A stretch of 64,000 nt of DNA from Synechococcus sp. CS-1329 (GTDB taxonomy: Bacteria > Cyanobacteriota > Cyanobacteriia > PCC-6307 > Cyanobiaceae). The notes below the pieces were generated by a model. That model was not told the DNA's origin. It did no database searches and was given only the letters and a program-made list of their open reading frames with translations. Location of the stretch: assembly GCF_025128055.1 (NCBI RefSeq), contig NZ_JAHLYS010000001.1:1-64000 (forward strand). Reading direction: 5' to 3'. The position numbers and the translations under genes are program-made. This document shows positions 43,134 to 47,944 of this stretch, piece by piece; position 1 is the first letter of the stretch, and each line of letters opens with the position of its first letter.

Positions 43134-43252
43134 ATCTCAAGATCTCCAAACAACGCCGAGGCGTTCATGCTGATCAAAACCTCACGCTCACTGCTGATGG
43201 ACTGGATCTTGGCTTGGTGCCTGGGCCAGCGATTGGAGCAGGCGCCTCAACG

Positions 43253-45454
43253 ATGACGACCATGAAGGATCACGGATCCTTGATCCAGGTTCGTGCCCTG
43301 AAGCTCCTGGCAGAGCTCACCACATCCGAAAAGCTGGCGCTGCTCGACGGCGACACCCCGTTCTGGTCCGGCATGGCGGACATCGCTCTCCACCAGGCGT
43401 CCCACCGCCATCCCTGGCCGGCGGCGGGGATCCCGCGTCTTGGCCTGGCGGGGCTTCAGTTTGTCGACGGCCCCCGCGGCGTGGCGCTGGAGGGAGGAGC
43501 CACCACTTTTCCGGTGCCGATAGCGCGGGGTGCCTGCTGGGACCCTGATCTGGAGGAGCGTATCGGCGAGGCCATTGGCCGTGAGGCCCGATCCTTCGGG
43601 GCGAACTGGGTGGCCGGGGTGTGCATCAACCTTCTCCGCCATCCGGGCTGGGGCAGGGCCCAGGAGACCTACGGGGAGGACCCTGTTCATGTGGGCGCCA
43701 TGGGTGCCGCCATGACCAGGGGGCTGGAACGCCATGCCGTGGCCTGCGTCAAGCACCTGGCCCTCAACTCGATCGACAGCTCCCGCTTCCTGGTGGACGT
43801 CCAGGTCAGTGAGCGGGTGCTGCATGAGCTCTATCTACCCCACTTCCGTGACTGCGTGGAAGCGGGCGCCGGTTCGCTGATGAGCGCCTACAACCAGGTC
43901 AACGGCCTGTGGTGCGGCCAGCACCCGCAGCTGCTGCGGCGGATCCTCAAGGAGCGCTGGGGATTCGGCGGCTTTGTTGTCACGGATTTCATCTTCGGCG
44001 TGCGGGATGGCGTTGGCGCCCTGTTGGCCGGCCAGGACCTGGAAATGCCGTTTCGCATGGTCTTCGCAGGCTGCCTGCCCGAGGCGGTGGCTGACGGCCG
44101 GGTGCCGATGCAGTGCATCGACGAGGCTGTGCTGCGGCTGCTGCAGGTGCAGCTGGGCGTGCCCCCAGGGGCGTATCCAACCTCGCTTCGCTCCTGCCAG
44201 CAGCACCGAGCCCTGGCCCGCGAAGCAGCCACCAGCTCGATCGTGCTGCTGCGCAACGAGGGCCAGGTGCTGCCCTTCAACGGTCTCAGCTCGCTGGCGG
44301 TGATCGGCCGGCATGCGTCGGTCGCCAACCTGGGAGATCGAGGCTCCTCAGACACCAGGCCCATGGCTGGATCGGTGGTGACACCGCTCAGCGGCTTGCA
44401 GGCCGCCGCTCCTGATCTGCGCATTGAGCAGGCCAATGGCAGCAGCCCCCAGGCCGCGGCGGAGCTGGCGGCGCGCTGCGACGCTGCCGTGGTGGTGGCC
44501 GGTCTGGACTGGCACCTGGAGGGCGAGCACATCCACCCCGGGGACATCGCCCCGATCCTGCGCCTGATCCCCCCGCCCGAGTGGATGCTGCGTCTGCTGG
44601 GGCGGCACCGGCTGATGCCGCTGTGGCGTCCAGTGGCCCACTGGCTCGCCTGGATCACCAGCTTCGCCTCAGCCCGCCAGGGTGGCGACTTTGCCGCCGG
44701 GGATCGCACCGACCTGAGCCTGCCCGCCGAGCAGGTGGCCCTGATTCGCCAGGTCGCCGCCGCCAATCCACGCACCGTGGTGGTGCTGATGGGTGGTGGA
44801 GCCCTGGTCATCGAGGAATGGCGGCAGCTGGTTCCAGGCCTTCTGCTGCTCTGGTATCCAGGCGAACAAGGCGGTGCGGCCCTGGCCGATGTGTTGCTTG
44901 GCAGGGTGTCGCCCTCGGGGCGCCTGCCCTTCTCCATGGTGGCCGACACCTCCCAGCTGCCGCCCTTCGAACCGCGGGCGCGGCGGGTCGTCTACGACCT
45001 CTGGCATGGCTACCGGCGCCTGCAGCGTGACGGCCATCCCGCCGCCTATCCCTTTGGCTTCGGGCTGTCCTACAGCCAGTTCACAGCGTCCGACCTGACA
45101 GCTGAGCTCCAGCGCAGCGATGGGCGGATGGATCAGCTGAAGGCGAGTGTCACCATCACCAACACAGGCGAGGTGGAGGCGGCCGAGGTGGTTCAGCTGT
45201 ACCTGGAGCCGCCCGCTCGGGAGATTGAGCGTCCGGCTCGAACGTTGGTGGCGTTTCAGCGCCTGCTCCTGGCCGCTGGTGAATCCCGGCGCCTCACCCT
45301 GGTCATCCCCCTGCGGGCCTGCGCCACGTTTGATCCGGTCATGGATGGCTTCGTGACCGAAGGGGGAGTGCACCGGCTTGTCCTGGCCCGGCATGTGGAG
45401 GAGGAGGGCCTGGCGGTGGAGCTGGAGCTGGAGGCTGCGCTGGTGTGCCGCTGA
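43253..45454 (+). CDS. Glycoside hydrolase family 3 enzyme (beta-glucosidase-like)
   Basis: This encodes about 733 residues: a GH3 (beta/alpha)8 domain, a second alpha/beta sandwich domain, and a C-terminal Ig/FnIII-like domain (VTITNTGEVEAAEVVQLYL). The nucleophile Asp245 lies in GGFVVTDFIFG; further GH3 blocks are RGPRGV-type FVDGPRGVALEGG, the KHLALN loop and the PFGFGLSYSQF strand. There is no signal peptide, so it acts in the cytosol, unlike most secreted GH3 enzymes. Beta-glucosidase or beta-xylosidase activity is likely; substrate unknown. Start is ATG at 43253, the first of two close methionines. It converges with the CrtO-like gene. Confidence 0.9.
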   Translation: MTTMKDHGSLIQVRALKLLAELTTSEKLALLDGDTPFWSGMADIALHQASHRHPWPAAGIPRLGLAGLQFVDGPRGVALEGGATTFPVPIARGACWDPDLEERIGEAIGREARSFGANWVAGVCINLLRHPGWGRAQETYGEDPVHVGAMGAAMTRGLERHAVACVKHLALNSIDSSRFLVDVQVSERVLHELYLPHFRDCVEAGAGSLMSAYNQVNGLWCGQHPQLLRRILKERWGFGGFVVTDFIFGVRDGVGALLAGQDLEMPFRMVFAGCLPEAVADGRVPMQCIDEAVLRLLQVQLGVPPGAYPTSLRSCQQHRALAREAATSSIVLLRNEGQVLPFNGLSSLAVIGRHASVANLGDRGSSDTRPMAGSVVTPLSGLQAAAPDLRIEQANGSSPQAAAELAARCDAAVVVAGLDWHLEGEHIHPGDIAPILRLIPPPEWMLRLLGRHRLMPLWRPVAHWLAWITSFASARQGGDFAAGDRTDLSLPAEQVALIRQVAAANPRTVVVLMGGGALVIEEWRQLVPGLLLLWYPGEQGGAALADVLLGRVSPSGRLPFSMVADTSQLPPFEPRARRVVYDLWHGYRRLQRDGHPAAYPFGFGLSYSQFTASDLTAELQRSDGRMDQLKASVTITNTGEVEAAEVVQLYLEPPAREIERPARTLVAFQRLLLAAGESRRLTLVIPLRACATFDPVMDGFVTEGGVHRLVLARHVEEEGLAVELELEAALVCR

Positions 45455-45470
45455 GGGGATGTCCACCCCC

Positions 45471-45992
45471 TCAGCCCCCCATGGAGGAACGCTGACGCTG
45501 GTTGGGGTGTTGCCTGCCGAGTGTCCGGCGCAGCGTCCTACCGAGGCGCAATCGGTTGTAGCGCTGCAGCAGCAGGCAGGGCAGGTTGAACAGGGTCGCG
45601 AAGAGCAGGTTGATCAGCACCCCAGCCGGAGGCAGCCAAAGGGCCGTGACCATCCAAGCGGGCCAGAGCAGGCAGTGCACCAGCTCCGCCCGACGGGTCT
45701 CCAGGCTGAGCCGTTGCAGGGCCAACGGGTCACGACGGGCCAGGCTCCCCTTGCGGATGCCTCCGGGTAGGGCGTTACCGGCATCGGGGATCCAGGGCTT
45801 CCAGATCCGGATCCGCAGCCACTGTTCGTAGAACCGCAGCGGTGCCGCACCCGGATGGTCAGGTTGGCAGGGATCACGCCCGCCGAGCAGCCGATCCGGA
45901 AGTTGGTTGGCGAGGGCCCCGATCACCAGCGACCAGACCAACCACAGCATCGCCGTGGCGACCACCGCACCCCATCCACTGAGTGTGGCCAT
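45471..45992 (-). CDS. CrtO-type glycosyl-carotenoid acyltransferase (staphyloxanthin family)
   Basis: This encodes about 173 residues with four hydrophobic helices. It shows the family blocks of staphylococcal glycosyl-4,4'-diaponeurosporenoate acyltransferase (CrtO): ANQLPDRLL, RFYEQWLRIRIWKPWIPDAG, SLETRRAELVHCLLWP and NLPCLLLQRYNRLRLGR, in the same order and spacing as in the S. aureus protein. In that organism the enzyme esterifies the glucose C6 of a carotenoid glucoside with a fatty acid. Its start overlaps the stop of the CrtQ-like gene. This CrtO must not be confused with the cyanobacterial ketolase CrtO. The carotenoid acceptor here is unknown. Confidence 0.85.
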   Translation of the reverse strand: MATLSGWGAVVATAMLWLVWSLVIGALANQLPDRLLGGRDPCQPDHPGAAPLRFYEQWLRIRIWKPWIPDAGNALPGGIRKGSLARRDPLALQRLSLETRRAELVHCLLWPAWMVTALWLPPAGVLINLLFATLFNLPCLLLQRYNRLRLGRTLRRTLGRQHPNQRQRSSMGG

Positions 45993-47149
45993 CAACGGGT
46001 GCTGAACAGGCGGCCCTTCCAGAGCACCTCACCGCTCTCCAGTTTGACAATTGCCTGCACAAATACCCCGAGGAAGAACAGCACCGGGATGGGGAACAGC
46101 AGATTGATCCAGGTGAAGCGACCAATCGACCGGGTGATCACCAGCAGCTGGATCACATAGGCCCCGTAGACCAGCGCATTGCTGAGTATGGAGTGGTCAC
46201 CCACCAGTGGCCAACCCAGGAGCGAGGCCGGCAGGCACCAGGCGGCCCAGAACAGGCCGGAGAGCCAAAGCACTACCGCCAGCATCCAGATCCAGCGCAC
46301 TTCACCGGCAGCAGTGGCGAAATTCTTGTTGAACCCCACCACCATGTCGCGCAGTCCGCCCGGGTACATGCGGTAGGCGATCTGGCCATGGCCGAGGAAC
46401 GCGCTCACCGGCAGAGCGGCCCGTTCGTAGGCATGGGCCAGGAACCAGTCCTCGACCACCTTGCCGGCGACGGCCTCATGACCGCCGCTGCGGTCATAGT
46501 CGGCGCGGCTGGTGACCATCGCCGGCCCGAAAGCCACCCCACAGGCGGCCCCCAAGGGCACGGCCATCAAGCCCACCAGGTTGAACAACAAGGAGAGCTG
46601 CTCATAGGGCTTCTCCGTGCGGTGATAGGGCTGCACCGACACCAGCCCACCGAGCTGCTGGTGCGCCGCCACCAGGCACTGGAGGAAGTCAGGGGTGGGC
46701 TCGGTGTCGGCATCAAGGAACATCAACAGCTCCCCCCGACTGGCCAACACGCCGTTGTGCAGGGCCCAGGTCTTCCCGCACCAGCCCTGGGGCAAAGAGG
46801 GCGCAGCGCACACGGTCACAGTGAGGTCGCTCCAGGGCTCACTGGCGATGGCGGTGGTGAGATCTGTGGAGTGGTCGTCGATCACGATCACCTCCAGGGG
46901 CATCAGGCTCTGTCGGGCAAGACAACTCAGTAGACGGGGAAGCGTGGACTCCTCGTTACGGGCTGGGATCAGCACGGAAAGCCTGGGCGGGTCCACTGGC
47001 GAGCCCCGGGGAAGCACGGGAAACCGCAGGCCCAAGACCCAGCCCACGAGCCACCGCACCACGATCGAAACGCCAACCCAGCCCATGGACAGCAAACCAG
47101 CTGAACCAATCAATCCTATGGGCAGGGGGAACGCCCAGGGCTCGCTCAC
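45992..47149 (-). CDS. CrtQ-like family 2 glycosyltransferase (carotenoid-type)
   Basis: This encodes about 385 residues: a GT2 domain with IPARNEE, the IDDHSTD and LDADTEPTP (DxD) nucleotide-sugar motifs, then membrane helices near the C terminus. Stretches SVQPYHRTEKPYEQLSLLFNL, AFGPAMVTSRADYDRSGGH and a closing WKGRLFSTR mirror S. aureus 4,4'-diaponeurosporenoate glucosyltransferase (CrtQ), which adds glucose to a carotenoid acid. Start is GTG at 47149 (overlapping the stop of the hydrolase gene as GTGA). It is translationally linked with the CrtO-like acyltransferase. Acceptor and sugar are inferred, not proven. Confidence 0.85.
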   Translation of the reverse strand: MSEPWAFPLPIGLIGSAGLLSMGWVGVSIVVRWLVGWVLGLRFPVLPRGSPVDPPRLSVLIPARNEESTLPRLLSCLARQSLMPLEVIVIDDHSTDLTTAIASEPWSDLTVTVCAAPSLPQGWCGKTWALHNGVLASRGELLMFLDADTEPTPDFLQCLVAAHQQLGGLVSVQPYHRTEKPYEQLSLLFNLVGLMAVPLGAACGVAFGPAMVTSRADYDRSGGHEAVAGKVVEDWFLAHAYERAALPVSAFLGHGQIAYRMYPGGLRDMVVGFNKNFATAAGEVRWIWMLAVVLWLSGLFWAAWCLPASLLGWPLVGDHSILSNALVYGAYVIQLLVITRSIGRFTWINLLFPIPVLFFLGVFVQAIVKLESGEVLWKGRLFSTR

Positions 47150-47748
47150 TCTCGGATCAACTCCTTGGCCAGAGGTCTGATGGCGGCCTGGTCCCGCAGC
47201 AGCTGGGGATGGGTCGCCACAGGCAGCTGCGTCCTTGCACCGATCGGGAGAACGGCTCGCCATCCCGGAAGCACGGCCAGATCAATGGCGGAGTAGAAGC
47301 TGTGGCACTCAATGCGATGGAGGGTGTCGAGGTTGCCGTTCAGGGTCTCCAGCAGGCCACTGCCCCACTTGAGATCAGCCAGGCCCTTGAAGATGCGTCC
47401 TGGCCAGGGCTGAGCCGTGAGGGTGCCCTGCTGGGGGCTGCCCACGCTGATGAAGCGACGTGTCCGCTCGTGTCCCCCCTGGAGCTGAATCCAGGTGCGG
47501 GCAATGACGCCACCGATCGAGAAGCCCAGCAGGTCGATGGGGTCGTCGAGTCCCAGGTTTTCCCGGATGTGGGCTCCCAGCAGTTCAGCGGCCTCTGCGA
47601 TCGGGGTGAGACCCAGGCGCAGCGGCAGTGCCGGGATGAGGAGAGCCTGTCGGCGCCCCCCCAGCGCCTGACGGAGTCGGTTGAACACCGCTGGACTGTC
47701 CAGCAGCCCATGAACCAGAACCAGGGGAGGAGTCGAAATCAAGAGCAC
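47146..47748 (-). CDS. Alpha/beta hydrolase (lipase/esterase-like)
   Basis: This encodes about 200 residues of an alpha/beta-hydrolase with the opening LVLVHGLLDSPAVFNRLRQ, the nucleophile elbow GFSIGG (Ser in GxSxG) and a VGSPQQGTLTAQPW block, like triacylglycerol lipases. The frame is open upstream to 47919 but that part is not family-like; GTG at 47748 (MLLISTPPLVLVHG) is proposed. It overlaps the GTG of the CrtQ-like gene. A role in removing or supplying acyl groups for the glycolipid made by the next two genes is plausible from the operon, but not shown. Confidence 0.75.
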   Translation of the reverse strand: MLLISTPPLVLVHGLLDSPAVFNRLRQALGGRRQALLIPALPLRLGLTPIAEAAELLGAHIRENLGLDDPIDLLGFSIGGVIARTWIQLQGGHERTRRFISVGSPQQGTLTAQPWPGRIFKGLADLKWGSGLLETLNGNLDTLHRIECHSFYSAIDLAVLPGWRAVLPIGARTQLPVATHPQLLRDQAAIRPLAKELIRE

Positions 47749-47944
47749 GCTGATGAAGCCTATCCATTCAAAACGATGACAACCCTGAGCAGTGAAAAGC
47801 GTGAACACCCCACCGGCGGGGGGCAAGAACTCTTGCGCTGTGATTCCAGCGGGGCCCAACAGCTCCTGGCGCTCGATCCGGCCATGGCGCGCTTCCTTGC
47901 CGGGTGATGAGTGGCACAATGCCGCTCATCACTGGGATGGGAGC

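Follow-up and report, generated by a model that had tools for sequence, protein, structure and literature searches.

Among the described systems, the closest to the locus treated here is the staphyloxanthin CrtQ–CrtO module, found in our comparisons on plasmids of Staphylococcus pasteuri and S. xylosus and combining a family 2 glycosyltransferase (GT2) with a CrtO-family acyltransferase. A glycosyltransferase and an acyltransferase likewise act on a carotenoid in Methylobacterium extorquens, where the roles of META1p3663/3664 in the formation of acyl-glucosyl-diapolycopenedioic acid were shown by gene deletion; that acyltransferase, however, is lysophospholipid-acyltransferase-like, and the relevant part of the article states that a CrtO homologue was not found there by its authors (PMC10448405). 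A 2025 review includes myxol and oscillol glycosides among the cyanobacterial carotenoids and states that the function of CruG as a carotenoid glycosyltransferase of cyanobacteria has been confirmed (section 11), and no word starting with 'acyl' occurs in its main text (PMC11857680). Here we describe a GT2–CrtO gene pair with two accompanying hydrolase genes in a stretch of 64,000 nucleotides from Synechococcus sp. CS-1329 (contig NZ_JAHLYS010000001.1, positions 1 to 64,000; the window). The host genome comprises 2.58 Mb in 49 contigs and is 99.98% complete, and the GC content of the window is 0.61–0.71 in 4-kb steps.

The window has the GT2 and CrtO families and their conserved residues in common with the staphylococcal plasmids. 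The arrangement differs: in the window the GT2 and CrtO genes are adjacent, whereas the staphylococcal operons have a gene for a flavin adenine dinucleotide (FAD) oxidoreductase between them, and the window pair has no adjoining gene for a carotenoid synthase, desaturase or oxidase. The window also adds an α/β hydrolase and a glycoside hydrolase of family 3 (GH3), and no C30 acid route was seen in its own genome. The CruF–CruG pathway to myxol 2'-glycosides also employs a GT2 acting on a carotenoid, but CruG falls in a separate clade and CruF is absent from all 201 Cyanobiaceae genomes sampled; to our knowledge its product carries no acyl group. The closest product type would be the thermozeaxanthins of Thermus, which are fatty-acyl glucosides of zeaxanthin; this likeness is one of product. 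The staphylococcal names clash with cyanobacterial usage, in which CrtQ denotes a zeta-carotene desaturase and CrtO stands for a ketolase (PMC2889829, PMC11857680).

The module is a variant of the CrtQ–CrtO end module, common in one picocyanobacterial group and usually extended by two hydrolases. On balance we lean towards the view that its four genes serve to attach an acylated sugar to a hydrophobic acceptor, most likely a C40 hydroxy-carotenoid, and probably also to remove it again. The membrane-bound GT2, to judge from its CrtQ clade, would glycosylate the acceptor with a hexose, probably glucose, and the small CrtO membrane protein would, as its family suggests, attach a fatty acid to the sugar. 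Removal of the fatty acid by the lipase-like hydrolase and of the sugar by the GH3 enzyme would then free the acceptor, a step proposed from the enzyme families and their co-inheritance. In picocyanobacteria the likeliest acceptor would be zeaxanthin, beta-cryptoxanthin or a hydroxyketo-carotenoid, which would yield an acylated carotenoid O-glycoside.

The acyltransferase belongs to the CrtO family by both profile and residues, as an earlier sequence-only reading of the window had proposed, and acyl transfer is its predicted activity. PF18927 was the only Pfam family matched at E ≤ 1 (E 2.6e-25; the score in Table 1 compares with a cut-off of 27.3 bits). The proteins of the window, Hydrococcus, Picosynechococcus, three actinobacteria and two staphylococci were aligned in eight rows, a Cytobacillus row being excluded on account of a stop codon in the range. 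Seventeen columns were identical throughout, including ETRRAE, the following His and QRYNR, and both blocks (ETRRAE..H and QRYNR) are intact in the window protein, which is 23–29% identical to the staphylococcal plasmid copies. The AlphaFold2 model, based on 36 sequences, was all-helical (pLDDT 75, pTM 0.68). A PDB sequence search with the protein gave zero matches at E ≤ 1, and VIA-align of the model reached a Z of at most 6.8, to helical proteins, which says nothing on function.

The GT2 matched PF00535 with an E-value of 7.8e-23. It had been called very close to CrtQ, a wording too strong for the 31–35% identity observed with the staphylococcal plasmid proteins, but the placement in the same clade held. 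In BLAST comparisons within the tree set it was 32–33% identical to staphylococcal CrtQ over 335–356 columns (E about 1e-51 and 1e-56), as against 25–30% over 220–372 columns (E 1e-21 or weaker) for 12 CruG and CruG/HpnB-like rows. The tree of 34 rows, rooted at the midpoint and with long branches flagged, joined the window GT2 to staphylococcal, Cytobacillus and actinobacterial GT2 proteins neighbouring CrtO genes in a 22-row group, which was separated from the other 12 rows (five true CruG and seven CruG/HpnB-like GT2) with a support of 100/99. The window GT2 is thus a member of the CrtQ clade, apart from CruG, with carotenoid glucosylation as its predicted role. The GT2 remained far below the cut-offs of HpnB (TIGR03469, 91.9 bits against 379) and CruG (NF045692, 72.5 bits against 600), and both identities were rejected. 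Staphylococcal CrtQ showed a similar pattern below the cut-offs (49.4 and 50.8 bits), and none of the 24 NCBIfam families listed for the window GT2 is a model named CrtQ. Five deeper cyanobacteria have a true CruG at 606–693 bits, a different GT2 from that of the CrtQ clade.

Elsewhere in the genome (contig C31:1102-2205, L010) is another GT2 of the CrtQ clade, which shares 69% identity with that of the window. Over 1175 bases its DNA matches, at 86.5% identity, a GT2 gene that in Cyanobium usitatum Tous (L079) is situated away from CrtO. The copy on C31 is followed by a gene for a Mutator/IS256-type transposase (PF00872, 435 bits); transfer between picocyanobacteria is possible. In the Picosynechococcus PCC 7003 plasmid (L125:8251-8784, the same stretch as L033:9168-9701) and in Hydrococcus rivularis (L112:8200-8742), a protein of about 180 amino acids with no good Pfam match is encoded directly upstream of the GT2, and the two proteins form one family.

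The co-occurrence of the pair in cyanobacterial genomes, suggested as a check by the sequence-only reading, was complete in the Cyanobiaceae sampled. Of 388 cyanobacterial genomes, 15 had a PF18927 match over the cut-off (the own genome with 11 others of its family, and three deeper ones), and two more had one below it. Within the Cyanobiaceae it was present in 56 of 201 genomes, or 48 of the 130 good ones, and the GT2 profile (E ≤ 1e-60) was found in exactly the same 56. The module is therefore not the trait of one cyanobacterium as which it had been presented, but occurs in these 56 Cyanobiaceae genomes and in some deeper cyanobacteria. The GT2 gene lay within 2.5 kb of the CrtO gene for 47 of the 58 CrtO genes, at 4–10 kb for three, on another contig for six and more than 0.8 Mb away for two. 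Because the co-occurrence is perfect even where the genes are unlinked, it is strong evidence for a joint function, with the reservation that related genomes are not independent. Of 72,556 plasmid records, the same 11 were matched by GT2 at E ≤ 1e-30 and by CrtO at E ≤ 0.01, nine from Staphylococcus and one each from Cytobacillus and Picosynechococcus PCC 7003.

A scan of 84,980 species genomes yielded 171 stretches encoding a relative, of which the best 80 were analyzed. Of these, 72 loci look picocyanobacterial, two belong to deep cyanobacteria (Hydrococcus and one other) and six to Actinomycetota. Counted over all 80 loci, GT2 is present in 72, the hydrolase in 51 and GH3 in 49. Gene order was compared in the 49 picocyanobacterial loci that extend at least 4 kb upstream and at least 3 kb downstream of CrtO, leaving out 23 shorter ones. 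GT2 was directly upstream of CrtO in 41 of them (37 by the script rule and four with overlapping matches: L057, L096, L106 and L107), elsewhere in the locus in two, and not seen in six. The strain and sample names of the picocyanobacterial carriers point largely to lakes, ponds and coasts.

Some single genomes deviated from the common pattern. In two (G415 and G490) both CrtO and GT2 occur twice, at separate locations. In Synechococcus sp. RedBA-s (L114), the nearest named relative, only fragments of GT2, CrtO and GH3 remain between well-conserved flanks, and the module seems to have been lost through deletions. The 72 picocyanobacterial-looking loci include those of a strain titled Microcystis elabens and of a metagenome-assembled genome (MAG) titled Bifidobacterium breve. 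The GT2–CrtO locus of this MAG (L077, CALPNT020000106.1) is picocyanobacterial, and the MAG is probably mislabelled or contaminated.

The hydrolase exceeded the cut-off of PF02089 (26.8 bits), and its PDB matches were weak, namely palmitoyl-protein thioesterase 2 (1pja, E 8e-4) and a secreted lipase. The Ser of its GFSxGG motif and the candidate Asp and His were kept in all 14 aligned rows. The GH3 protein has, besides the two Pfam domains of Table 1, an Fn3-like domain, and its best PDB match was the beta-glucosidase 2x40 (E 5e-89). Its (T/S)DF motif, presumably the site of the nucleophile, was kept in seven aligned rows, and a simple hydropathy scan found no hydrophobic segment in the protein. 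Hydrolase and GH3 were both present in 38 of the 49 loci, both missing in nine and found one without the other in two. The hydrolase was upstream of CrtO in 39 loci; GH3 was convergent within 2 kb of CrtO in 36 and present anywhere in the locus in 39. In the first set of loci both accompanied the pair in all 11 other own-family loci over the cut-off and in none of the three deeper ones. GH3 is thus part of the module, and deacylation followed by deglycosylation would be the simplest reading of the two enzymes, given their families and co-inheritance.

As to the layout of the locus (Table 1), the three minus-strand genes described as overlapping are all present and real, but their large overlaps are partly due to over-long open reading frames (raw frames 47146-47919 for the hydrolase, 45992-47263 for the GT2 and 45471-45995 for the CrtO-like protein). 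The conserved portion of the hydrolase begins at about 47735. Conservation of the GT2 begins at about 47086, although its frame extends to 47263, and its start is either the GTG at 47149, which gives a 4-base overlap with the hydrolase stop, or the ATG at 47086. The CrtO ATG has one base in common with the GT2 stop. The genes are still tightly packed, which may reflect translational coupling. The module had been delimited as 45471-47748, missing the conserved GH3 gene, which is convergent with the CrtO gene and ends 16 bases from its stop; the three minus-strand genes span 45471-47919. The module is not a chance assembly, because the same proteins recur in the same order, mostly at 50–90% identity, in dozens of further picocyanobacterial contigs. 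Rfam, promoter and terminator scans gave no result above chance.

Table 1. Genes of the module, with their positions in the window and the evidence for their assignment.
Feature	Position	Strand	Basis	Proposed role
α/β hydrolase, lipase / palmitoyl-protein-thioesterase-like	47146..47919	-	PF02089 33.5 bits	putative deacylase
GT2 glycosyltransferase, CrtQ clade	45992..47149	-	PF00535 81.7 bits; tree; pairing with CrtO	
CrtO-family (glycosyl-4,4'-diaponeurosporenoate acyltransferase) membrane protein	45471..45992	-	PF18927 89.5 bits; alignments; AlphaFold2 model	
GH3 beta-glucosidase	43214..45454	+	PF01915 157 bits, PF00933 119 bits	putative deglycosylase

The sequence-only reading had noted the lack of crtM, crtN and crtP and had left an ordinary C40 carotenoid or another lipid as the acceptor. 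This was a fair guess, because the own genome has a single PF00494 synthase gene (phytoene synthase), which adjoins that of phytoene desaturase, and no CrtN/CrtP-type oxidase or aromatase was named among its seven PF01593 genes (a comparison by name that does not extend to CruE and CruH); with only this PF00494 gene, the staphyloxanthin C30 route was not seen. The genome also holds zeta-carotene desaturase, CrtH, an orange carotenoid protein (OCP) gene with an adjoining CrtW-like ketolase gene (214.5 bits, under the cut-off of 350), and a CrtD-type C-3',4' desaturase (C39:31529-32959, L169; 739 bits, cut-off 549.7), but no CruF. A CrtH-like paralogue (L170) was observed as well. A hopanoid acceptor is unlikely in the Cyanobiaceae, since a hopene cyclase was found in only one of the 201 genomes (G119, contig C26:5237-6817, L180), which is not the own genome.

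Gene neighbourhoods outside the Cyanobiaceae, together with the relationship to CrtQ and CrtO, suggest that the module likely decorates a carotenoid. The staphylococcal plasmid operons with CrtQ also contain genes annotated as phytoene/squalene synthase, phytoene desaturase and FAD oxidoreductase, which we take to be crtM, crtN and crtP. In Nocardioides potassii, SQS_PSY and crtI-family genes (crtI_fam 536 bits) precede the pair, ending about 2 kb before it, and in Hydrococcus rivularis an OCP gene lies 0.9 kb upstream of the GT2 with one intervening gene. An Acidimicrobiales MAG (L122) has a crtI-like gene (148.7 bits, cut-off 238) about 5 kb from the pair, in a genome without a PF00494 match. 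Ten genomes (six g8, three g187 and one g15) have OCP at 4–31 kb from CrtO, those of g8 and g187 showing largely one arrangement. This linkage was rejected as proof of a carotenoid role and counts as weak support, since OCP is mostly distant and the g8 and g187 cases are largely alike. Zeaxanthin is prominent in Cyanobium (PMC8012758, PMC9785593). The Cyanobium pigment tables contain unidentified carotenoids (PMC7551005, PMC9785593), and peaks at 12.02 and 12.51 min are restricted to the two Cyanobium strains in the table of PMC7551005. Such peaks were not accepted as the product, as early unidentified peaks occur also in other strains of PMC9785593.

Several observations weigh against a carotenoid as the acceptor. 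Three of the six actinobacterial genomes with the pair (G538, G540 and G541, MAGs whose completeness is not given) have no PF00494 match, so that no C30/C40 carotenoid or hopanoid route is seen in them; if they are complete, the pair can use another substrate. No carotenoid gene is a conserved neighbour in the Cyanobiaceae, because outside the four module genes no family occurred in more than five of the 17 loci compared. Where a CrtO-bearing genome is assembled in one or two contigs (11 cases), OCP is more than 110 kb (linear) from CrtO in nine, and its presence in 53 of 56 CrtO-bearing as against 33 of 145 other Cyanobiaceae genomes could be explained by ancestry alone. The fold of CrtO was uninformative, Foldseek giving zero matches to the model at E ≤ 0.001, and an acylated carotenoid glycoside is not reported in the pigment data of the Cyanobium articles (PMC7551005, PMC9785593, PMC8012758). 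It is therefore possible, if doubtful, that the same chemistry serves a non-carotenoid acceptor, giving, for example, an acyl-glucosyl-diacylglycerol or the acylated glycoside of another alcohol, since the missing PF00494 matches and the uninformative Cyanobiaceae neighbourhoods would both fit, and GT2 enzymes also act on glycerolipids. Against this stand the carotenoid genes that adjoin the pair wherever the neighbours are informative (Staphylococcus, Nocardioides) and the fact that in two of the three negative genomes the pair is on a contig shorter than 20 kb. A carotenoid carboxylic acid, for example a synechoxanthin-like acid glucosylated to an ester as in S. aureus, appears improbable: CrtQ uses a carboxylate in staphyloxanthin biosynthesis, but the PF01593 genes of the own genome offer no named oxidase or aromatase for such a route. 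The Methylobacterium glycosyltransferase, 27% identical to CrtQ, does act on a carotenoid dioic acid (PMC10448405). Least credible of all is that the GT2 substitutes for CruG in making myxol-type glycosides. Among the named families CruG comes second to HpnB in score, and a CrtD-type desaturase is encoded in the own genome, but CruF, lacking throughout the Cyanobiaceae sample, is present in all six deeper cyanobacteria tested, which also makes a myxol acceptor unlikely in this family. Furthermore, true CruG is found in five of five deeper genomes tested, four of which carry the GT2 in addition, the tree keeps the two apart, and the pigments given for Cyanobium LEGE 07175 show no myxoxanthophyll (PMC9785593).

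Whichever acceptor is used, the hydrolase and GH3 might be bystanders, or have a synthetic role such as trimming or transglycosylation, the pathway consisting of GT2 and CrtO without turnover. This we regard as a real possibility, though not the one we would choose: nine of the 49 Cyanobiaceae loci hold the pair or CrtO with neither hydrolase nor GH3 nearby, the same is true of all five deeper cyanobacterial loci (L033, L035, L036, L112 and L115), and GH3 is encoded on the opposite strand. On the other hand, the two genes are jointly present or jointly missing in 47 of the 49 loci, the hydrolase gene is packed against that of the GT2, and the candidate catalytic residues of the hydrolase are conserved. 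A more specific form of the make-and-break reading, rather unlikely as it stands, would be a reversible pool of acylated xanthophyll glycosides in lake and coastal picocyanobacteria, in which GT2 and CrtO would anchor the pigment and the hydrolase and a cytosolic GH3 would release it, for example as free hydroxy- or ketocarotenoid destined for OCP.

Among the leading titles found in the open-licence PMC literature, none dealt with cyanobacterial acyltransferase genes of the CrtO family or with acylated carotenoid glycosides from cyanobacteria. If the proposed function is true, a large freshwater and coastal picocyanobacterial group makes acylated glycosides that have been overlooked by pigment and lipid profiling. 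The carriers would be tractable, non-pathogenic hosts for work on the CrtO acyltransferases, a family without a solved relative in our searches; culture strains with the module or the pair in their genomes are Synechococcus sp. WH 5701, Vulcanococcus limneticus LL, Cyanobium usitatum Tous and Picosynechococcus PCC 7003. The module also suggests that carotenoid glycosides might pass through a cycle of building and release, an idea open to test; should the reversible pool prove true, cyanobacteria would, as far as is known, gain their first acylated carotenoid glycoside as well as their first pathway dedicated to carotenoid deglycosylation.

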